IMG/VR virus record: IMGVR_UViG_3300033886_000044
Location: 1 to 40,570 of that record
Source of the DNA: a virus
Reading direction: 5' to 3' (one strand)
DNA length: 40,570 nucleotides
A model generated the notes under the pieces. The model ran no database searches and was not told where the DNA came from. It saw only the letters and a program-made list of their open reading frames with translations. Every line of letters begins with the position of its first letter. Positions within the stretch are counted from its first letter, which is position 1. Of the stretch, positions 2,016 through 32,400 are shown in pieces. A program made the position numbers and the translations under genes.

Positions 2016-3550
2016 CCCAGATCCTCCGCAACCTCCAAGGCGTAGCCGTGTAGGGTCCAGTCCTGCGTCCCCGTGTGCTCGAACCTGATGTCGAAGAAGC
2101 GTCCGGTGACGTAGAGGTCTACTTTCTTCTCGTTCGTCGTGTAGACCTTCTGCACCACCGGTCCAGCTTCGTCCGACAGGTGCATCCGGCCACGCACCGT
2201 CACAAGGAACGATGTAGGCGTCGAGGCCTCAAAGCGAGGCCAAATGGACATGAGCCGCTTCACGCGCGGGGGCGGCTCAATGGAGAGCCACTTGCGCTCC
2301 AGCACGCTGTACGTCTCGCCAACCGTTCGCGAGGGCCGCTTGACAGTGCTGTCCGCACACGCAAGCACGATGCTCCCAATCACCTCCCGGCTGGCTACCG
2401 CCCCTATGTCCCACTGATCCCTTCCAGAGTTCCAGTCCCCGCTGCTGCCGCTCCACCGGTCCACAGCCGACCTGGCAACCCCAACCGCAGCAGCCCCCAT
2501 TACCCTGCTAAGGGACCTGATGGTCCATGTGTTGTATGCCCAGTTCCACACCAAGGCTGTGTCTAGCTCCGTTCCTCCCGTTGGAAACAGGATCCACACC
2601 TCACGTGTCAGACGGTCCGGCACCACACAGACCCGGTGGCGGCTCTGGGCACGCAGGTTCCTGAAGAACCAGGACCGAACCTTGGGTGTGGCAATGCTCT
2701 GCACGCCGCCCTGCGACAGCAGGACGATGTCGTTGTCCGTCACCACGAAGTGGCCTGTGCCGATGTCGGCTACCGCCCCAAGCGCCAGGATGCCTGAGGT
2801 GTTCGACACCTGGGAGAAGGCAAACACGCTCATGCCGCCGACATAGCGCATGGCCCAGGTGGAGGTTTCACCGTAGATGATGTTCACATCACCTAGGGGG
2901 AGGCAGTCCACCAAGGCGTCCGATCCCGGCACGAGCACCACCTCTCCCGCGTCCACTGCGGGGTCCGCCTCGTTCCAGCTTGCCGGCACCGTACCTGGGT
3001 CTGCGGTGTGAGACCACTTCACCATGCGCGGGAAGGTACCCGAACTCTTCTTGACGTTGAGCGCCACTAAGTGGTACTTGAAGGGCCGCAAGGCCCCAGC
3101 CGTGGTACCCGCGGGCCAAGCGGGCAGGTCTACCAGCCGTACGCTGACGTCCTGATCAAGCCAAGCCTGCGGCGTGTCCACTCCGTTGTTGAAGATCGGC
3201 ACGCCGTTGAAGTCCGCCAGATGCCATCTGTGCTCCAAGCTCCCGCTGTACGGACCGGAGGCCCGGGTGATGTTCTCCTCATTCCCCTCCACATCACGGG
3301 CGTAGATGCTCTCCCTGTCCGCGTAGATGTAGTGGCTCGTAAGCGTGCCCGGGATGAACATCAACTCCAGCGGCTCGACCTGGGTGTCGAAGGCCACCTC
3401 AAGGCCCCGCGCCTTCTTGGCGACGCCCTCCTCGAACACCACCCCTCGAACGTCAGTCCACACGTTGATCGGGACCTGACGGTAGGCGTCAGGAGAGAGG
3501 TCCTTCACGACCCCGTGCTCGCCCGGAGATGTTACCTCAACGAAGATCAT
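2006..3550 (-). CDS. Tail nozzle / head-completion protein (P22 gp10 / T7 gp12-like)
   Basis: 514 aa, all-beta in appearance with repeated Gly/Asn/Trp turns. It includes an N-terminal motif typical of podoviral nozzle proteins (DAYRQVPINVWTDVRGVVF) and a central beta-propeller-like region with VWNWAYNTWTIRS near residue 335. Proteins of this kind plug the portal-adaptor channel and form the tail tube tip. The gene directly follows the adaptor, and the ATG at 3550 overlaps the adaptor stop by 4 nt (ATGA). This adaptor-nozzle order matches podoviral tail modules. The assignment to nozzle rather than needle-side accessory is by layout and size. Confidence 0.7.
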   Translation of the reverse strand: MIFVEVTSPGEHGVVKDLSPDAYRQVPINVWTDVRGVVFEEGVAKKARGLEVAFDTQVEPLELMFIPGTLTSHYIYADRESIYARDVEGNEENITRASGPYSGSLEHRWHLADFNGVPIFNNGVDTPQAWLDQDVSVRLVDLPAWPAGTTAGALRPFKYHLVALNVKKSSGTFPRMVKWSHTADPGTVPASWNEADPAVDAGEVVLVPGSDALVDCLPLGDVNIIYGETSTWAMRYVGGMSVFAFSQVSNTSGILALGAVADIGTGHFVVTDNDIVLLSQGGVQSIATPKVRSWFFRNLRAQSRHRVCVVPDRLTREVWILFPTGGTELDTALVWNWAYNTWTIRSLSRVMGAAAVGVARSAVDRWSGSSGDWNSGRDQWDIGAVASREVIGSIVLACADSTVKRPSRTVGETYSVLERKWLSIEPPPRVKRLMSIWPRFEASTPTSFLVTVRGRMHLSDEAGPVVQKVYTTNEKKVDLYVTGRFFDIRFEHTGTQDWTLHGYALEVAEDLGWL

Positions 3551-4425
3551 TCGTCTTCGAACCCCTTGAACCTCGGATCCGTGCTCGCGACCGCCCGCGA
3601 GATGGTTTGGGTAGCGAGTCTCTGCAATGCCAGCGTGAGGTCCTCCTGAAACAGCACAGCCGCCGATTGGTCACGCAGGTAGCGGGCCACTTGTCGCCCG
3701 GCGTAGGAAACCAGAACGTCCGGTGCATATGTGAGCCACCTGTTCTTGTCCACATCGCCTAAGTTAGCATCCCGTGCATAGTAGAGAATGTTGATGGCGT
3801 ACGAAATGTCCGGAATCGGACGGAGGTAGATCTTGTCGCCGACCACTGCGTAATAAGTAGGGGGGCCTTGCAGGGGCAGCATGCCTTGGATGCGATGGAC
3901 TCCCACCTTCTGGAGAGGCCTCCAACCCCCACTTACCTGCAGGGCAGCACTGCTCGTGTGCCCCGACTCAGCATGCTCCCGCAGAAAGTCATCCGGCAAC
4001 GTTACGTGCTCGACGCCAGCAGAGGTGCCCAGCGTGGCGGCTGCTACGAGGAACCACGGGAGTGGCTCCGTAGCCTCCAGCGCGTGCTGGGCCATGATCA
4101 GCTCCTGCACGATGTAGTCATCCAGCCCCGTGCGGCTCCCGAGCCGAGAGGAGATAAGGCTTATCGCCTCGGGTTTGGTAAGGCCCAAAGTGGTAACGAA
4201 CGGCCCCACTGTGGTGCGGTACCACGCAATGTGGGAGTCACCGGGCTGAGGTGGGTACACGTAGGTGATGACATTCCCGGACAGCGTGAAGTCCGCACCC
4301 GGCCTCTGCACCACACCGTTCAGCACGAGCAAGAGGCTCTGCGGCGGGTCCGGCGCGTACTGGAGGGTAAAGACCCTGTTGGTGCCGTCTATGACACCTT
4401 GCGGAACCTCACTGTCTCTGAACAC
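3547..4425 (-). CDS. Head-tail adaptor protein (gp11/gp4-like)
   Basis: 292 aa from a GTG with an upstream GGGAG. Residues 1-68 form a beta domain found at the start of several phage structural proteins (VPQGVIDGTNRVFTL, LVLNGVVQRPGADFTLSG). Residues 80-292 resemble podoviral adaptors (tail tubular protein A type): helices around LISSRLGSRTGLDDYIV, a beta insertion, and a terminal helix with YAGRQVARYLRDQSAA. It would form the ring beneath the portal and receive the nozzle encoded next. The unusual point is the extra N-terminal beta domain. Adaptor identity is inferred from fold-like features plus gene order. Confidence 0.65.
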   Translation of the reverse strand: MFRDSEVPQGVIDGTNRVFTLQYAPDPPQSLLLVLNGVVQRPGADFTLSGNVITYVYPPQPGDSHIAWYRTTVGPFVTTLGLTKPEAISLISSRLGSRTGLDDYIVQELIMAQHALEATEPLPWFLVAAATLGTSAGVEHVTLPDDFLREHAESGHTSSAALQVSGGWRPLQKVGVHRIQGMLPLQGPPTYYAVVGDKIYLRPIPDISYAINILYYARDANLGDVDKNRWLTYAPDVLVSYAGRQVARYLRDQSAAVLFQEDLTLALQRLATQTISRAVASTDPRFKGFEDE

Positions 4426-18942: not shown

Positions 18943-19230
18943 ATGATCACCAATCCCAAGAAACTCGAAAGCCTTGATGAGCTCAAGGCCATGTTTGACC
19001 CCAGCGTGCATGGCGCGCTAGAACAACTAGCGCGCGATGCGCGCCACATCGTAGTCTATGAGGTCCTCGACTTCTGGTCGTCTCGGTTCGGCCACCGGAC
19101 CGCCCTGAAAGTCGGGCCGGGGTGCAGCATCAAGAGCCTGGAACAGGCTCTCCAGATCTGGCTTGGGGACCTGCCGTCAGAACGGCAGTACGCGGTGGCG
19201 TACTGGGAGCGTGAAGGAGGATCGGCATGA
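18943..19230 (+). CDS. Early paralogous protein P1 (duplicated with 24255-24551)
   Basis: 95 aa from the ATG at 18943 behind GGAGGGC. It is clearly paralogous to the protein at 24255-24551. Both share the start (NxKKLxSxxELxxMF), a central ARxIVVY, an F-G-x-R-[TS]-ALKVGP block and a terminal VAYWE. In both places it sits beside a member of the beta-rich family, here followed by one through an ATGA overlap. The layout (two helices, strands, helix, strand) suggests a small alpha/beta domain. Function unknown. Confidence 0.7.
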   Translation: MITNPKKLESLDELKAMFDPSVHGALEQLARDARHIVVYEVLDFWSSRFGHRTALKVGPGCSIKSLEQALQIWLGDLPSERQYAVAYWEREGGSA

Positions 19231-19556
19231 AGATCAAGATCGGTACGACCAACTGGGTCTGCGGAGAGATTCTCTCCGCGGACCGGATCGAGGTCAGGTT
19301 TGACACCCTCGTTGTTGAGGGGGACGGGGTGGACATCTCTGTCCCCTTCAACCCCGGAGACCTGGAAATCCAGGTCTGGGTATATGCCCCGCAAGGGGTT
19401 ACCCTGACCCTGGAAGGAAGGTATGAGCTTCGAATTCCATCTGGTCTGAGCATTTGCTCGCACCACGATGGGGTTATTGAAGTCAAGGCGCACAGAGACG
19501 CATTGCACATTAAGGTCTGGCAGTACAAGACGGTTGTGCTGCAGGAAGCCGAGTAA
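19227..19556 (+). CDS. Beta-rich early protein, family member A
   Basis: 109 aa, starting at the ATG overlapping the previous stop (ATGA), with GAAGGAGGATCGGC upstream. The sequence alternates hydrophobic residues like a beta-sandwich, including DTLVVEGDGVDISVPFNPGDLEIQVWVYAP. It aligns with three other proteins in this window (19623, 22815, 23951) through an M-x-[IV]-x-I start, a D-x-[LI]-x-V strand, an (E/D)(L/I)P(V/L)xPG turn and a V-E-x-x-[AV] stretch. Function is unknown; its amplification suggests a target-adapting role such as inhibition of host factors. Confidence 0.7.
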   Translation: MKIKIGTTNWVCGEILSADRIEVRFDTLVVEGDGVDISVPFNPGDLEIQVWVYAPQGVTLTLEGRYELRIPSGLSICSHHDGVIEVKAHRDALHIKVWQYKTVVLQEAE

Positions 19557-19622: not shown

Positions 19623-19937
19623 ATGCACGTCACGATCAAGAGCCCCAACCGGGGCATAATCCTGTACGCGAGGCGTGTTGGTCTCAACTGTAACTTGCTA
19701 GTAGTTGAGAGCGATAGCTTGATCTGTGAGCTTCCGCTCAAACCGGGAAACGTAGAGCTTGAGATTCGTGTGGTAGAGCAAGCCGTCCTAGTATCGTCAG
19801 GACGCTTCCGGCTTGACCTGCCTGAGGATTCCACGCTGCTCGTTCGCACGAGCGAGCAGCGTGTGGAGGTTGAGGCTGTCGGCGGCTTCGGGAAGTTCGC
19901 TGTGTTGGATGGGATGGCCTGGATCGAGGCCATCTAG
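19623..19937 (+). CDS. Beta-rich early protein, family member B
   Basis: 104 aa. The ATG at 19623 follows AAAGGAGATGGC. An overlapping ATG five bases earlier is out of frame. It belongs to the beta-rich family: start MHVTI, ILYARRVGL as in member C, SLICELPLKPGNVELEI at the PG turn, and a Val-rich second half. It is adjacent to member A, forming a tandem pair, and is followed by a terminator and the large intergenic dyad. Function unknown. Confidence 0.7.
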   Translation: MHVTIKSPNRGIILYARRVGLNCNLLVVESDSLICELPLKPGNVELEIRVVEQAVLVSSGRFRLDLPEDSTLLVRTSEQRVEVEAVGGFGKFAVLDGMAWIEAI

Positions 19938-19947
19938 GCACAGCGAA

Positions 19948-19988
19948 GGGGGACGTAGCGTCAAGGCTACGTTCCCTCTTTTTGTTTT
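19948..19988 (+). terminator. Intrinsic terminator ending the first early block
   Basis: About 12-bp stem GGGGACGTAGC / GCTACGTTCCC (one G-T pair), loop GTCAAG, followed by TCTTTTTGTTTT. It separates the first group of early genes from the long non-coding dyad region. Confidence 0.85.
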
Positions 19989-20002: not shown

Positions 20003-20060
20003 AGCGAAAACCTCAAGCGAAAACGCAGGTTAGTGGTCACTAACCTAGTGGTCACTAACC
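20003..20060. repeat. Tandem short repeats left of the 400-bp dyad
   Basis: AGCGAAAAC occurs at 20003-20011 and 20016-20024, a 13-bp period. Next, TAGTGGTCACTAACC occurs twice head to tail (20031-20045 and 20046-20060). Each copy contains a dyad TAGTG-GT-CACTA, extended in the first copy to GTTAGTG-GT-CACTAAC. These look like protein-binding iterons abutting the larger structure. Confidence 0.8.
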
Positions 20061-20460
20061 GGATTGCGGCTGATTGCGGCTGTTGCCCAATTGTGGCCGA
20101 TAGCGGCCCTTTGCGGCCAGCGGAGGCCAGTAGAGGCCAGTGGAGGCTGGTGGAGGCCATAGCGGCCAATTTTCAAGGACCCGGGGGTATCTGTCGTGGG
20201 TTCTATATGGTTCCATTGTACTTATAATGGTGCCATCCCTATATATAGTTCTATAACATTAATTTTTTTTAATAATACCCATATATAAATAGCACCATTA
20301 AGAATGGCACCATCATTTAACCCACGACGGATAGACCGGGGGTCCTGGAAATTGGCCTTAATGGCCTCAGGTGGCCTCCAGTGGCCTTCAGTGGCCTCTA
20401 CCGGCCGCAGGCGGATCAGATGGGCAGTAATGGGTAGCAATGGTAATCAATGGTTGCAGC
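20061..20460. repeat. 400-bp dyad with mirrored decamer arrays and AT-rich centre (candidate replication origin)
   Basis: No gene is supported. The left half carries about 10-bp repeats with GGCC cores at 20095, 20105, 20115, 20125, 20135, 20155 and 20164 (GGCT at 20145). The right half carries the inverted motif with GGCC at 20354, 20363, 20373, 20383, 20393 and 20403. The two arrays are in register around 20260/20261, including the same 9-bp step of the innermost pair. Inside lie inverted arms (CTGTCGTGGGTT at 20191 against AACCCACGACGG at 20319). At the middle is an AT-rich core with TATATATAG, ATTAAT exactly at the centre, and an A/T run. Outer units on the right continue as TGGGNAGNAA decamers. 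It resembles a replication origin with an unwinding element; a MITE-like relic or centromere-like site are alternatives. Confidence 0.8.
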
Positions 20461-20481: not shown

Positions 20482-20511
20482 TTGCGCCGGGGTGCACAAG
20501 TGTGCTATAAT
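20482..20511 (+). promoter_or_regulatory. Early promoter P2 (extended -10)
   Basis: TATAAT at 20506-20511 with TGTGC immediately before it, and TTGCGC 18 bp upstream. GGTGCAC (20491-20497) also occurs in P1 at a similar distance from the -10. It drives the gene at 20560 with a leader of about 40 bases. Confidence 0.65.
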
Positions 20512-20559: not shown

Positions 20560-20901
20560 ATGCTCAGAAGGAAAGACCGCATACAGTTCCCGGAGCAGCA
20601 AATCGTGTACCTGCTGCGCAAACTCAGGGCTGAAGGCCAAGTCTCAATCCGCTTCGAATCCCCCCAAGTTGCATCGAAGTTTCGGTTCATGCTGTACGCT
20701 TGGCGCAACTTGCAGCGCGCTGCTGAGTATCAGGGCTTAGAGCCTGAACTGGCAGCGACCGCTGAGACGTTCGTGGTCTCCGTGGATGGCCCGATCTTGA
20801 AGCTCTACGGTGACCGCTGGGACTGGCTGGACGAGGCGCTGCTAGACGGCAAGCCCTTGCGCGAGTGGCTGCGCCGGGAGGGAAAGGTGAAGGACCTTTA
20901 A
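20560..20901 (+). CDS. Hypothetical early protein next to the dyad
   Basis: 113 aa, ATG at 20560 behind GGAGGTTGGAGC. The N-terminus is basic and helical (MLRRKDRIQFPEQQIVYLLRKLRAEG). A region of mixed structure follows (SIRFESPQVASKFRFMLYAWRNLQRAAEYQG), then strands (ETFVVSVDGPILKLYG), ending in an acidic/basic helix with WDWLDEALLDGKPLREWL. It is the first gene after the 400-bp dyad and has its own promoter, so it is a candidate dyad-binding protein. This is only positional inference; no known fold is recognised. Confidence 0.6.
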   Translation: MLRRKDRIQFPEQQIVYLLRKLRAEGQVSIRFESPQVASKFRFMLYAWRNLQRAAEYQGLEPELAATAETFVVSVDGPILKLYGDRWDWLDEALLDGKPLREWLRREGKVKDL

Positions 20902-20978: not shown

Positions 20979-21359
20979 ATGGTAGTGGCGAATGCAATCT
21001 CGCTCAACATGCTGCCGCTAGAAGTGCAATCCGGCGGGATCATCTTCCGCCGCATCGGCCTCTCCGAGGCCCAGCGCCTCGTCCGCGAGGCGGGCGAGAT
21101 CGTGTCCGCGATCGGGCACGCGGACACTGCCCGGATCGTCGGCGGGCTGCTCGGCGTCGAGCTTCCCGCCGATCGGCGGTCCATCGTGCTGGGCGACGAG
21201 CACGTGCTCGTGGCCCAGTACACCGGTCCTCGTCTCCCTGAGGGCGCAACCGAGCTCCCTGAGGGAGCTCGGATCGAGTTCTTTCTGGTCCGACTGGCCA
21301 GCAGCGAGGAGCTCGCCGGTCGGGGCGATATGGTGTTCTTCCCGCAGGGCGGGCGGTAA
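20979..21359 (+). CDS. acrIII-1: Viral ring nuclease, AcrIII-1 anti-CRISPR (DUF1874)
   Basis: 126 aa. It matches the DUF1874 family founded by archaeal virus proteins (STIV B116, SIRV1 gp29). The N-terminal NAISLNML block is at residues 5-12, and the catalytic-region AIGHADTA puts His at position 47, the number given for the SIRV1 active-site histidine. GGLLGVELPADR follows, then RLPEGATELPEGA and a terminal strand IEFFLVRL. Family members degrade cyclic tetra-adenylate and so switch off type III CRISPR ancillary nucleases such as Csm6/Csx1. AGCAGGAGGACCCA precedes the ATG. It has a dedicated promoter and terminator, so it would be expressed very early. Confidence 0.85.
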   Translation: MVVANAISLNMLPLEVQSGGIIFRRIGLSEAQRLVREAGEIVSAIGHADTARIVGGLLGVELPADRRSIVLGDEHVLVAQYTGPRLPEGATELPEGARIEFFLVRLASSEELAGRGDMVFFPQGGR

Positions 21360-27592: not shown

Positions 27593-28840
27593 ATGCAGTT
27601 CGTGAAGATCTCAGAAATCCAAGTGGAGCCGAGCCGGTTCCGCAAGACGATTGAAGAAGAGCCGCTCCAGGAGCTGACAGAGTCCATCCTGGAGCACGGC
27701 TTGCTCCATCCCCTCGTGGTGCGAAGAGAGGGCATGAAGCTCATCTCGGGCGAGCGCCGCCTGCGCGCGATTGACCGGCTTTACAGCCAGGGCAAGACCA
27801 TTCGCTTTGGGGATACGGAGGTTCCGCCGGGCTGCGCCCCGGTCCTGGTCGTAGACCGCTCCGAGCTTCAGGTCCGCGCACTGGAGCTGGAGGAGAACCT
27901 GCGTCGGGTGGACCTACCGTGGCAGGAGAAGGTGGCGGCTATCGCTGCGATCCACGAGATGAAGAGGGCGGAGTCTGAGGACTGGGCCTTGAAGGACACC
28001 GCCGAGCTGCTTTCGGAGAAGGGGGTGAAGGCCTCTGTGCCCACGGTGAGGCAGGCGGTGATCCTGAACCGCTACCTCTCCGTCCCCGAGATTGCCCGTG
28101 CTCCGAGCCAGAGGGAGGCCCTGAGGCGGCTTTGCCGGGTGGCGGAGCTTCAGCTTCGTCAGGCTATCGCCAGGAGGGACCCCGACAGCCCGCTGGCGAA
28201 CAAGTTCGTGTTCCGACAGGTGGACGCGCGAGAGGGGCTGAAAGCCCTTGAAGAGCCGGTAGACGTCTACATCGTGGACCCGCCCTACCACGCGAGGAAG
28301 CACAGCTTCTGGGAGGCCTGGCCTCCGGACAACTGGAGGCACATTTCGCCCCTTCTGAGCGAGGTGGCGCAGCTCATGGCCGAGAAGGGGCCGTCGGCCC
28401 ACGCCTACGTGTTCTGCACCACTCGCCGCTTCGCTGATCTTGCGGAGCTGATGGAGAAAGCCGGATGGAAGGTTTGGGCGAAGCCCTTCATCTGGGTGCG
28501 CGAAGGAGCGCAGTCGAAATACACGGTTGGGCATGTAGATGCCTACGAGCCGATACTGTTTGCGGTGCGTGGAGCGAGGTCTCTTGTCAACATGGGGCCG
28601 GACGTGATTCTGTGCCCAAGCGTCGGTAAGGATCAGAAGCCCACAGAGTTGTACGTGGAACTTCTGAGGCGCAGCGCCTATCCTGCAAGTGTGGTCTGCG
28701 ACCCCTTCTGCGGCTCCGGTCCCATCTTCGGGGCCGCGCACCGCCTGGGCCTGAAGGCCTACGGCTTTGACACAGACTCGGAGGCAGCGGCTATGGTCTT
28801 GGAGCGCCTCAAGCAGATTGAACAGGAGCGGGCGAAATGA
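27593..28840 (+). CDS. ParB-like / DNA methyltransferase fusion
   Basis: 415 aa, ATG at 27593 behind CAGGAGGCACGG. Residues 1-110 are a ParB/sulfiredoxin-type domain with the phosphate-binding motif GERRLRAI, followed by a helical linker (about 110-200). Residues 205-415 are an N4/N6-type methyltransferase with catalytic DPPY at 229-232 and the cofactor motif DPFCGSG at 370-376, the beta-class order. It probably modifies adenine or cytosine amino groups in phage DNA to evade restriction. The ParB-like part may use CTP or nucleotides, or contribute DNA binding. Stop overlaps the polymerase ATG (ATGA). Confidence 0.85.
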   Translation: MQFVKISEIQVEPSRFRKTIEEEPLQELTESILEHGLLHPLVVRREGMKLISGERRLRAIDRLYSQGKTIRFGDTEVPPGCAPVLVVDRSELQVRALELEENLRRVDLPWQEKVAAIAAIHEMKRAESEDWALKDTAELLSEKGVKASVPTVRQAVILNRYLSVPEIARAPSQREALRRLCRVAELQLRQAIARRDPDSPLANKFVFRQVDAREGLKALEEPVDVYIVDPPYHARKHSFWEAWPPDNWRHISPLLSEVAQLMAEKGPSAHAYVFCTTRRFADLAELMEKAGWKVWAKPFIWVREGAQSKYTVGHVDAYEPILFAVRGARSLVNMGPDVILCPSVGKDQKPTELYVELLRRSAYPASVVCDPFCGSGPIFGAAHRLGLKAYGFDTDSEAAAMVLERLKQIEQERAK

Positions 28841-31176
28841 AGGTACCGTTCGAGGGTCCGCTGGACAGCTCCATCTGGGTCGTGGGCGAGGCTCCGGGAG
28901 TTGAGGAAGAGCTTCAGGGCCGCCCGTTCGTTGGTTCCTCCGGGCGGGAGCTGACGAACATGCTGCACCAGGCCGGGATCGTCCGCACTTCGTGCAGGAT
29001 TTGTAATGTCTTCAAGGTCCGCCCGCTGAACAATGACATCTCCCACTTCGTAGCGAAGCGCAAGCGCGCGCCGTGGCCGGACGCTGTTCAGTTCCATGGT
29101 AGGTGGGTTCGAGCGGACCAGTTTCCGGACCTGGAGGACCTCCTTACGGAGATCCGCACCCACAAACCCAAGGTGGTCCTCGCCTTGGGCGACATCGCCC
29201 TGTGGGCCTTGACGGGCCGCAGCGGCATCGGCACTTGGCGAGGCTCCATCCTCTCCTTCGAGGAGGGAACGTACGTCGTTCCCACCTATCACCCAGCAGC
29301 GATCCTTCGCCAGTGGTCCGACCGCAAGGACGTGATCGTGGACATGAAGCGGGCGCTGTGGCTCACTACAGGCGAGCGCCGGCCTCCCGCATGGTCCACT
29401 TACGTGGACCCCTCCTTCGATGAAGCCCTTGAGTTCATCGAGGAGTGCAAGCACCAGTCCATGGTGTCCCTCGACCTTGAGACAGGCAGCGGCCAGATCC
29501 TGTGCATCGGGCTGGCCTTCGGCCATGAGGCCATGTCCATCCCCTTGGTTCATGACAGTGTCAGCCGGTGGAGCGAGGGCGAGGAGCTTCAGCTCCTCCT
29601 GTCGCTTCGCGACCTGTGCAGCTCCGGGCGCGTGGTGGGCCACAACCTGCTCTACGACGCCTTCTGGCTTGCCTGGCTCTTCTCCATCTGGCTGACGCCG
29701 AAGCTGGACACGATGCTGGTGCACCATCTGTGCTTCCCCAGCACCAAGAAGAGCCTCGCTTACTGCGCCTCCCTGTACTGCGACTGGTACACTTTCTGGA
29801 AACACGAGCGCTACGGTGGTGAGGAGGAGAAGAAGGACTGGCCTACAGCCCTGCTGGAACAGCGGGCCTTGCGCCGCTACAACTGCCTTGACTGTCTCTA
29901 CACCCTTCAGGTGGCGGAAGCCCTTTACCGCATCGTGGATGCGCGGCAGCTCCACCAGCAACTCTCCATCCAGATGGGTCTTTTCGCCCCCGTGCTCAAG
30001 ATGGAGCTGCGGGGCCTCCCTGTGGACGTGGAGGAGCGTCAGCGCATGTCCACAGCGGCTGTGAAGGCGATCTCTGATCGCCTTGCCTACCTCCGACAGC
30101 TGTTCGGCCACGATGTAGATCCGTGGGCTACCCGTCAAGGCGGCCAGCTCCACAAGCTCTTCGCAGAGGACTTCGGGCTTCGCCTTCCGCTAGACAGGAA
30201 AACCAAGAATCCCTCGGTGGGAGACGAAGCCCTTGATGAGCTTGCGCGGACGGAGCCGCTTCTAGCCCCGGCCATCCGGGCCATTCGGGAGGCCCGCTCC
30301 GTGCGGAGCCTGCGCTCGGGCCTGCTTCAGGCTCCCGGACCCCTGGACCGGCTCTATTGCAGCTTCAACCCGGCTGGCACCGCCACCTTTCGCTTCTCCT
30401 CAAGCCGGAACCCGCTAGGTTGGGGCACCAATTTGCAGAACATCCCCAAACCTGGGGCGAAGGGCAAGGCCTCCATCCCCGATGAAGTCGGCTCACCCAG
30501 GGCACTAATCGTGCCCGATCCCGGCTACGTCCTCATCGAGGCGGACCTTGAGCGCGCGGACCTGTACGTGGTAGTGTGGGAGGCGGACGATGAAGTGCTG
30601 AAGCACCTCATCCGCCACGAGGACATCCACGAGGCCAACGCTAAGGTCATCGGGACGAACCGCGACTTCGCGAAGCAGTTCGTCCACATGGTCAACTACG
30701 GGGCGAAGCCGCGCACTGTGGCCAAGACCCTGCGCATCTCCGTGGCCTGGGCCACCCAGTGCCGGAACCGATGGTTCGCGGAGCATCCGAAGATCCTGCA
30801 ATGGCACTGGCGCATTAATCGAGAGATCAGGGAGAATCGCCGAGTCCGGAACCAGTTCGGTTACGAGCTGATCATCTTCGACCGGCCTGAGGATGCGCTT
30901 ACGGAGGCTCTCGCCTGGATTCCCCAGTCCACCGTAGCCATCTGCACGAACCTCGGGCTTCTGAACATCGAGCGAGACCCTGAGGCCCGGCGGCTTGACA
31001 TTCAGCCTCTGGCTCACTGGCACGACGCCCTCCTGCTTCAAGCGCCGGAGGTCCATCTCCAGGAGGCCTTGGAGGTGGTGAAGCGCTGCATGTCCGTAGT
31101 GGTTCCGTACCCGGACCCGCTTGTGATCCCCGTAGACGTCAAGTATGGCCTTCGCCAATCAGAGATGAAGAAATGA
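28837..31176 (+). CDS. Uracil-DNA glycosylase / family A DNA polymerase fusion
   Basis: 779 aa. Residues 1-165 match family 4/5-like uracil-DNA glycosylases: GEAPG at 17-21, the QGRPFVG segment, NVFKVRP at about 57, and His152-Pro153 in VPTYHPAA. The paired N-terminal cysteines of Fe-S members are missing. Residues 205-360 are a 3'-5' exonuclease with Asp213-x-Glu215, a GHN-xxx-D block and Tyr348-x3-Asp352. Residues about 380-779 are the polymerase: motif A at Asp570 (EADLERADLY), motif B FAKQFVHMVNYG, and motif C HDA at 729-731 instead of HDE. It is the likely replicative enzyme, with uracil removal or recognition built in. Confidence 0.9.
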   Translation: MKVPFEGPLDSSIWVVGEAPGVEEELQGRPFVGSSGRELTNMLHQAGIVRTSCRICNVFKVRPLNNDISHFVAKRKRAPWPDAVQFHGRWVRADQFPDLEDLLTEIRTHKPKVVLALGDIALWALTGRSGIGTWRGSILSFEEGTYVVPTYHPAAILRQWSDRKDVIVDMKRALWLTTGERRPPAWSTYVDPSFDEALEFIEECKHQSMVSLDLETGSGQILCIGLAFGHEAMSIPLVHDSVSRWSEGEELQLLLSLRDLCSSGRVVGHNLLYDAFWLAWLFSIWLTPKLDTMLVHHLCFPSTKKSLAYCASLYCDWYTFWKHERYGGEEEKKDWPTALLEQRALRRYNCLDCLYTLQVAEALYRIVDARQLHQQLSIQMGLFAPVLKMELRGLPVDVEERQRMSTAAVKAISDRLAYLRQLFGHDVDPWATRQGGQLHKLFAEDFGLRLPLDRKTKNPSVGDEALDELARTEPLLAPAIRAIREARSVRSLRSGLLQAPGPLDRLYCSFNPAGTATFRFSSSRNPLGWGTNLQNIPKPGAKGKASIPDEVGSPRALIVPDPGYVLIEADLERADLYVVVWEADDEVLKHLIRHEDIHEANAKVIGTNRDFAKQFVHMVNYGAKPRTVAKTLRISVAWATQCRNRWFAEHPKILQWHWRINREIRENRRVRNQFGYELIIFDRPEDALTEALAWIPQSTVAICTNLGLLNIERDPEARRLDIQPLAHWHDALLLQAPEVHLQEALEVVKRCMSVVVPYPDPLVIPVDVKYGLRQSEMKK

Positions 31177-31182
31177 ACTGCA

Positions 31183-32400
31183 ATGAGAAAGTTCAAGGGA
31201 TGGCTCGAAGCGTACCTGGAGTTCACAGGGCCTACGGAGGCCCCCACTGTATTCCACTTCTGGGTGGGAGTCGGCACCATCGCTGCGGTGCTCCGCCGTA
31301 AGGTCTACATTAATCAGGTCTTCTTCGAGTGGACTCCCAACTTCTACATCTGCCTCGTCGCCCCACCCGGTGTCGCGACGAAGTCCAGCGCCATCGGCAT
31401 CGGCGAGCAGTTGCTCGCTGATCTGGGAACCATCCGGCTTGGCCCCAGTGCGGCTACATGGCAAGCCATGATCAAGATCCACGTAGAGGCGGCGGAAGCC
31501 GTTCAGATGCCTGACGGGTCGTGGATGCAGATGTCCTGCGTGACATACTGCACCTCCGAGCTTGGGACCCTTGTCAACTTCCACGACCCGCAGATGATTG
31601 ACGTGCTGTGCGATCTGTGGGACGGGAGAAGGACCTGGTCCAAGGCCACGGCTCACTTTGGCTCTGCCGTACTGGGCAACCCGTGGGTGAACATCATCGC
31701 GGCCACGACGCCAGCTTGGTTGTCGGACAACCTGCCAACAAGCCTGCTTGCCGGAGGCTTCGTCGCGCGGACGGTGTTTGTGTACGCGGACCGTAAGCGC
31801 CAGCTTATTGCCTATCCCAAGGAGCACTTCGCCAAGGTTCAGCACAGGGTTCGGAGGGAGGATCTGCTGAGCGATCTAGAGAGAATCTCCCTTCTCAAGG
31901 GAGAGTTCCAACTAACGCCGGAGGCCATTGAGTGGGGCACGAAGTGGTATGAGAAGCTCTACCACGAGTTGCAGTCTGCGCAGACCACCGAGTGGCAAGG
32001 ATACCTTGCCCGGAAGCAGACCCACGCCCACAAGTTGGCCATGGTCCTGTCCGCTTCCCGCTCCGACTCCATGGTCATCGAGGCAAGTGACCTGCAACGG
32101 GCCGTGCGGTACCTTGATGAGATAGAGGCAGGCATGTCCGAGGTCCACCGCATGATGGTGTTCACGTCGGAGGGCGAGCAGACCAGCCGGTTGGTGGACC
32201 TTGTGGCCAAGCGCGGCCCGATGCCCCTCTCGGTCCTCTACAGGGCCTACTTCTCCCGCTACGGAACGAGCTTTCAGGACTTTCAGAAGATCCTGGAGTC
32301 CGCCCTTCGAGCAGGCCTTATTGTGGAGTGGGCTGACGGGGGGCGGATACTGGTGGGTACGCCTGCCTCAGCTCCCGAGCAAGGGGAACAAGTTCCTTAG
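31183..32400 (+). CDS. DUF3987-like primase-helicase ATPase
   Basis: 405 aa. A short N-terminal helical region (WLEAYLEFTGPTEAPTVFHFWVGVGTIAAVL) precedes a modified Walker A, APPGVATKSS (about residues 60-69). Walker-B-like acidic sequence and an arginine-finger-type stretch follow, then a C-terminal winged-helix-like part (LVDLVAKRGPMPLSVLYRAYFS). The layout matches DUF3987 proteins that act as phage primase/helicase ATPases. It closes the replication cluster. The ribosome site is weak, and the last 83 bases overlap the convergent giant gene. Confidence 0.7.
   Translation: MRKFKGWLEAYLEFTGPTEAPTVFHFWVGVGTIAAVLRRKVYINQVFFEWTPNFYICLVAPPGVATKSSAIGIGEQLLADLGTIRLGPSAATWQAMIKIHVEAAEAVQMPDGSWMQMSCVTYCTSELGTLVNFHDPQMIDVLCDLWDGRRTWSKATAHFGSAVLGNPWVNIIAATTPAWLSDNLPTSLLAGGFVARTVFVYADRKRQLIAYPKEHFAKVQHRVRREDLLSDLERISLLKGEFQLTPEAIEWGTKWYEKLYHELQSAQTTEWQGYLARKQTHAHKLAMVLSASRSDSMVIEASDLQRAVRYLDEIEAGMSEVHRMMVFTSEGEQTSRLVDLVAKRGPMPLSVLYRAYFSRYGTSFQDFQKILESALRAGLIVEWADGGRILVGTPASAPEQGEQVP

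Follow-up and report, generated by a model that had tools for sequence, protein, structure and literature searches.

Mirrored, helically phased repeat arrays around an AT-rich core form a predicted replication origin in a lineage of PolA- and DUF3987-encoding phages

Introduction

In the HSV-1 origin OriS, inverted initiator sites flank an AT-rich spacer, and initiator dimers cooperate across this spacer and distort it (PMC12543377). Helical phasing is documented for the iterons of plasmid origins, and in the iteron plasmids P1 and RK2, as well as in ori-lambda, helix-phased repeats adjoin an A+T-rich melting region (PMC5043065). RepA_N iterons, as in pSK41 and the PLE satellite, contain inverted sub-repeats that converge on a poly-A tract (PMC7145576), while SaPI and SCCmec replicons combine an initiator helicase with short iterons near the helicase gene, the SCCmec protein Cch being MCM-like (PMC7581432). 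The DUF3987 family, in turn, was predicted by Kazlauskas et al. to be a novel helicase family replacing MCM, RepA or DnaB (PMC5862659).

The locus described here lies in a 40,570-bp IMG/VR virus record, analysed at its full length and referred to below as the window. Like OriS (the UL9/OBP origin), it places inverted repeats on either side of an AT-rich centre; OriS, however, has two or three boxes and belongs to an animal virus, whereas the window has arrays of decamers. Iterons of P1, RK2 and ori-lambda are usually one-sided, whereas the dyads of the phage lineage to which the window belongs are mirrored and change in sequence between relatives. RepA_N iterons are small semi-palindromic units in direct repetition, in contrast to a single 400-bp dyad, and no RepA_N protein was found among the window genes scanned. 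SaPI and SCCmec origins adjoin the helicase gene, whereas the DUF3987 gene of the window is about 11 kb from the dyad, and the SCCmec protein Cch2 requires direct repeats, not inverted ones. With OriS, SaPI and SCCmec as precedents, the remark in the initial annotation that no known phage origin has this design was too strong. Within the literature searched, no origin mapped or described for this lineage was found, nor was one reported in the paper on the member phage Kuura (PMC9959647). The individual ingredients are already known; that literature yielded no mirrored design shared across a lineage in which the iterons are rewritten and the core can invert.

Results

Architecture of the mirrored dyad

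The dyad occupies a 622-bp intergenic gap between an upstream ORF ending at 19937 and a downstream ORF starting at 20560 (Table 1), and is single-copy within the record. Direct reading confirmed the design first proposed for it, namely GGCC decamer arrays mirrored about 20260/20261 with ATTAAT at the centre and a 9-bp innermost step. GGCC cores start on the left at 20095, 20105, 20115, 20125, 20135, 20155 and 20164, with GGCT in place of GGCC at 20145, and on the right at 20354, 20363, 20373, 20383, 20393 and 20403. Both arrays have an innermost step of 9 bp, the other left steps being 10 bp; the mirror axis of all cores falls at 20260.5, and ATTAAT spans 20258–20263. The two best-scoring sites for a lag-10 repeat in the window begin at 20063 and 20363 (z 8.3 and 7.4, the next one 3.8), and therefore the period reaches further out than the GGCC cores, running a few units beyond them, with GCGGC units in the left array and ATGG units in the right one.

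This 400-bp dyad is the strongest in the window, and its arrays are the strongest 10-bp repeats. The best ungapped dyad of all 40,570 bp is centred at 20260, with 88 matches of 150 (z 8.2) and 104 of 200 (z 7.3). With arms of 160 bp its score is 91, against at most 67 in 1000 dinucleotide shuffles of the region, which excludes a chance origin. The symmetry is imperfect: the arms are 75% complementary over 91 nt, and in the inner part the two halves match only if small indels are allowed (gapped arms 20112–20246 and 20281–20409). An RNA hairpin or terminator is thought unlikely because the arms are just 75% complementary and the core is far longer than that of a terminator. Each half has two ATGGTGCCAT-type palindromes between its inner arm and the core. 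No 100-bp stretch of the window is richer in A+T than the one starting at 20201, at the dyad core, and the T8 at 20263–20270 is the window's sole A/T homopolymer of at least 8. The dyad thus has both helix-phased tandem short repeats and an adjoining AT-rich region, as iteron origins do. The second-ranked ungapped dyad, at 21161 (z about 5), is within a likely coding region.

Table 1. Coordinates of the dyad, its parts and flanks, and selected genes of the window
Feature	Position	Strand	Remarks
Intrinsic terminator of the upstream gene, left edge of the intergenic region	19948–19985	+	12-pair stem, T-rich tail
Palindrome TTAGTGGTCACTAA and a second abutting 15-bp copy, just beyond the dyad	20029–20060	.	
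Whole mirrored dyad, predicted replication origin	20062–20460	.	top ungapped dyad in the window
Left helically phased array: GCGGCTGATT-type units on the outside, followed by GGCC decamers with a 9-bp final step	20062–20167	+	lag-10 z 8.3; GGCCN6GGCCN6GGCC matches
Inner left arm AATTTTCAAGGACCCGGGGGTATCTGTCGTGGGTT with GGGGGTAT motif	20168–20202	+	mirrors 20319–20353
Segment inverted relative to flanks in L239	20178–20366	.	78% identity +/+
Inner palindromic sites, left: ATGGTTCCAT (20207–20216), ATGGTGCCAT (20227–20236)	20207–20236	+	
AT-rich core ATATATAG...ACATTAA-T8-AATAATA...ATATATA, predicted unwinding element	20241–20287	.	
Inner sites, right half: ATAGCACCAT (20289–20298), ATGGCACCAT (20304–20313)	20289–20313	-	
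Inner right arm AACCCACGACGGATAGACCGGGGGTCCTGGAAATT	20319–20353	-	inverted copy of 20168–20202
Right array: inverted copy of the left decamer, then outward 10–11 bp ATGG units	20354–20452	-	lag-10 z 7.4
Candidate promoter TTGCGC-N18-TATAAT, extended -10 (TGC), right edge	20482–20511	+	read directly
Downstream gene, 113 aa, no family match	20560–20901	+	structure model poor, pLDDT 48
PolA-type phage DNA polymerase	28837–31176	+	phrog_17, E 2e-91
DUF3987 / phrog_14296 protein, MCM-like AAA+ fold, candidate replicative helicase/initiator	31183–32400	+	

At the right edge, the -10 element of the candidate promoter is retained in two near relatives, L041 and L239; a consensus scan for promoters did not pick this promoter up. 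At the left edge, the stem of the terminator is kept in L041 despite sequence change in both of its arms. In the window, as in four other phage lineages (L013, L057, L038 and L039), the palindrome TTAGTGGTCACTAA is located 21–81 bp outside a mirrored-repeat dyad, and the 15-mer TAGTGGTCACTAACC is present in 59 viral contigs, several times in some of them.

Genes of the record

The window carries PolA and DUF3987 genes. Its structural and terminase genes run leftward, and its early and replication genes rightward, the latter including an exonuclease, a Sak4 ATPase, a ParB-N/methyltransferase, PolA and DUF3987. No initiator gene adjoins the dyad. Family searches with the product of the gene at 20560 returned no family, so a cognate initiator was not recognised next to the repeats; such a gene beside iterons is common, not universal. 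The initial annotation had put this product forward as a candidate binder, yet it has only one close relative and two short partial matches, and because its relatives do not span the lineage it is unlikely to be a general initiator. PHROGs searches with the small early genes gave no match. Two adjacent early genes upstream (19227–19556 and 19623–19937) stem from a tandem duplication and have since diverged (32% identity, E 7e-10), and shortly after the gene following the dyad, at 20979–21359, a protein with an STIV B116-like domain is encoded (PF08960, over the curated cut-off). In a near relative, L002, a cytosine-5-methyltransferase-like gene was seen in the early region (3459–4200 and beyond); none was seen in the window.

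A PF13148 match was found in 38 of 40 DUF3987 family members. The AF2 model of the window's protein has a pLDDT of 91.5, and in its comparison with the PDB all 50 matches listed were MCM/CMG entries (best E 2e-11, TM 0.46 on the query). With a TM of only about 0.46, the model points to kinship with the MCM fold, which is not proof of function. A profile search of the PDB with the DUF3987 alignment returned only spurious repeat-protein matches.

Dyads across the lineage

No phage record matched the window region in a near-DNA search. The survey comprised 40 genomes (30 contigs from IMG/VR, the other 10 being named records or the window), chosen by their PolA and DUF3987 genes, each of which is present in 39 of the 40. 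Named relatives are Microcystis phage Mel-JY34, Manatee Spring ctMlz233, Vibrio VS-ABTNL-3, Caulobacter Kuura, Polaromonas Tiera and a Desulfofustis phage. Gapped inverted repeats were sought around AT-rich cores. A single outlying inverted repeat of this kind was found in 30 of the 40 genomes (score 38–99), with differing repeat sequences, against at most 34 for the runner-up position in each genome and at most 33.5 in shuffles. The remaining 10 scored below 38, among them several whose dyad is weaker or whose contig breaks at the tract. Six unrelated phages (lambda, T7, FF47, Troje, SuMu and LUZ7) have no outlier dyad (score at most 31), and neither do eleven loci with distant terminases (at most 24). 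These phages and the distant-terminase contigs replaced the motif contigs L003–L061, which were unsuitable as controls because several of them have dyads beside the motif. Since the search was devised after the window had been seen, its weight rests on the shuffles and the control phages.

The A/T tract is a recurrent part of the design. A/T runs of at least 8 fall within 60 bp of a dyad midpoint in 24 of 45 cases, against 0.11 expected (G028 left out), and a central tract of 7–20 bases, in a TTAA-Tn-ATA context, occurs in about 32 of the 40 genomes. Its T strand follows the early direction in 24 cases and the opposite in 7 (p 0.003). Across the lineage, C6/G6 tracts are enriched beside dyads (59 vs 3.8 expected), as are GGGGGTAT/ATACCCCC near them (12 vs 0.17 expected). 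The repeat units themselves vary wholly by genome, being GGCC decamers, GCCATTTCC, TGCATTTT, GGGCAGTT, or CAT/CAA/CCA triplets.

The address of the dyad is constant: non-coding DNA of the early region, mostly 2–5 kb from terL (range 1.9–11.3) and mostly 8–16 kb from polA, which lies in the early direction. An earlier search limited to PolA flanks (the first 80 loci) mostly found no array because polA is more than 10 kb from the dyad in most genomes; full contigs were searched afterwards. In five annotated members (L062, L063, L146, L148 and L152) almost all genes on both sides are directed away from the dyad region. Clustering of the genes near dyads for a common initiator brought out only a terS-like HTH protein and a 210-aa family, the terS-like gene being 0.5–2.3 kb from most dyads. 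Outside the lineage, the unrelated phages L057 and L013 have a similar dyad about 110 bp from a D5-like primase-helicase gene, so that there an initiator gene does lie beside the repeats. Metagenome contigs of the lineage (G001, G020 and G023) are repeatedly cut at the A/T tract of the dyad, which is probably a homopolymer assembly effect.

For Caulobacter phage Kuura, 606-bp terminal repeats were determined by PhageTerm (PMC9959647), and they were verified in its record. In the 43056–43813 region of this lineage member (L147), the dyad abuts the start of the terminal repeat, which begins at 43208, 55 bp from an A12 core and within the right arm.

Near relatives

Two close relatives of the window illustrate how the dyad changes. 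In IMGVR 3300031812_000007 (L041; 97% PolA) the core is almost unchanged and the arrays are altered by substitutions and by loss of about two left units. In IMGVR 3300027863_001432 (L239), whose TerL is 96% identical to that of the window, the period of the arrays is still strictly 10 bp (42/60 and 41/60 matches) but the units are new, mainly of the GCGGCTGATT type, and terL, the genes in between, the left array and the flank with the promoter all align in the orientation opposite to that of the central 190 bp. Because L239 combines the same period with new units and an inverted core, the dyad keeps its geometry while its repeat sequence is rewritten, with no fixed core orientation. Among the viral contigs, the inner arm sequence occurs in only one near relative, at the same position.

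Discussion

Comparison across the lineage suggests that the dyad is probably a phage replication origin, bound by an initiator on both sides and melted at the A/T tract. This assignment is well supported by the occurrence of one dyad per genome at a fixed position, by the central A/T tract, and by the lineage having its own PolA and MCM-like DUF3987 proteins. Genes pointing away on both sides are what would be expected if forks start at the dyad region, and the primase-helicase gene next to the dyads of L057 and L013 is an origin context. Against an origin stand the lack of an initiator gene beside the window dyad, the 10 of 40 genomes scoring below 38, and the Kuura repeat at 55 bp from the core. 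GC skew, proposed initially for mapping the replication start, was dropped as evidence: it switches near 18.1 kb, away from the dyad, and because this switch coincides with the divergence of transcription it is confounded with gene orientation and speaks neither for nor against an origin.

The Kuura repeat, in the lineage's only phage with mapped ends, together with the terS-like gene close to most dyads, would also fit a site of packaging or terminal-repeat processing, where the mirrored arrays would serve as the recognition site, either for the terminase small subunit or in a T7-like repeat-duplication reaction, and the genome would be cut beside the core. Cut and pac signals have a fixed polarity, whereas the L239 core is inverted relative to its flanks and the T tract takes both orientations (24:7); packaging, moreover, does not require an AT-melting core, and the dyads of the unrelated L057 and L013 adjoin a primase-helicase gene. 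In addition, the ends of contigs G003, G020 and G023 overlap by 127 bp, and therefore reads cross the dyad without a unique end. We regard packaging or repeat processing as the strongest rival, though an unlikely one; the inverted core of L239, the occurrence of both tract orientations, the A/T tract itself and the primase-helicase genes beside dyads of other phages favour an origin over it, and a dual role in origin function and packaging or repeat processing is possible. A regulator bound to the arrays could instead loop the DNA and control early promoters, making the dyad an operator or enhancer of the early operon. Cooperative regulators typically use short phased repeats, such as those found here, the dyad is flanked by a terminator and a candidate promoter, and the T tract mostly follows the early direction. 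Genes running in the same direction, however, give an operator no need of mirror symmetry round an A/T tract, the L239 core is flipped without the promoter, and one dyad per genome persists across very divergent phages and adjoins primase-helicase genes in others, which makes this explanation quite improbable.

Of the origin or centromere-like complex suggested in the initial annotation, the origin part has gained from the lineage comparison and the centromere part has found no support. A partition site could be imagined since one gene of the window encodes a fusion of a ParB-N domain with a DNA methyltransferase; the fusion, however, is a methyltransferase present in 25 of the 40 genomes, fewer than have the dyad, and no link between the two was found. 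The genes scanned included no ParA, and neither an integrase nor a plasmid-prophage gene was seen, so that a centromere-like function has only a very slight probability. A MITE-like or transposon-like element with long terminal inverted repeats, raised initially as the outcome that would undo the origin, has next to none: a long imperfect inverted repeat in intergenic DNA would suit it, yet it is refuted by the single copy in the record and by the lone homologue of the inner arm at the same locus in a near relative. No target-site duplication was seen, and highly diverged phages have their dyads at the homologous position with unrelated arm sequence.

If the dyad is an origin, a phage- or host-coded initiator would bind the helically phased decamers on both flanks, and because the arrays are inverted, two like complexes would stand opposite one another with the A/T tract between them. 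The strain exerted by both could open the tract, one helicase would be loaded per direction, and bidirectional replication would follow. As helicase or initiator, the MCM-like DUF3987 protein is the leading candidate, and PolA would extend the new strands. It is tempting, if decidedly tentative, to hypothesize that throughout the lineage the mirrored phased arrays load two DUF3987 rings head to head across the A/T tract, the arrays being rewritten fast with their geometry kept and the core being invertible without loss of function.

The predicted origin offers a simple test, a single gapped inverted repeat round the genome's A/T tract, which yields a candidate in about 30 very different genomes. 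Candidate sites are thereby predicted in the named phages Kuura (at 43.15 kb), Tiera (about 43.85 kb), Mel-JY34 (about 44.2 kb) and VS-ABTNL-3, and a phage family of MCM-like helicases, DUF3987, would be tied to a defined DNA site. The lineage may also provide a natural series in which the sequences of initiator sites change wholly while spacing and symmetry persist, which bears on the co-evolution of initiators and origins. Head-to-head loading of DUF3987, if true, would be the phage counterpart of double-hexamer loading at the origins of eukaryotes and animal viruses.
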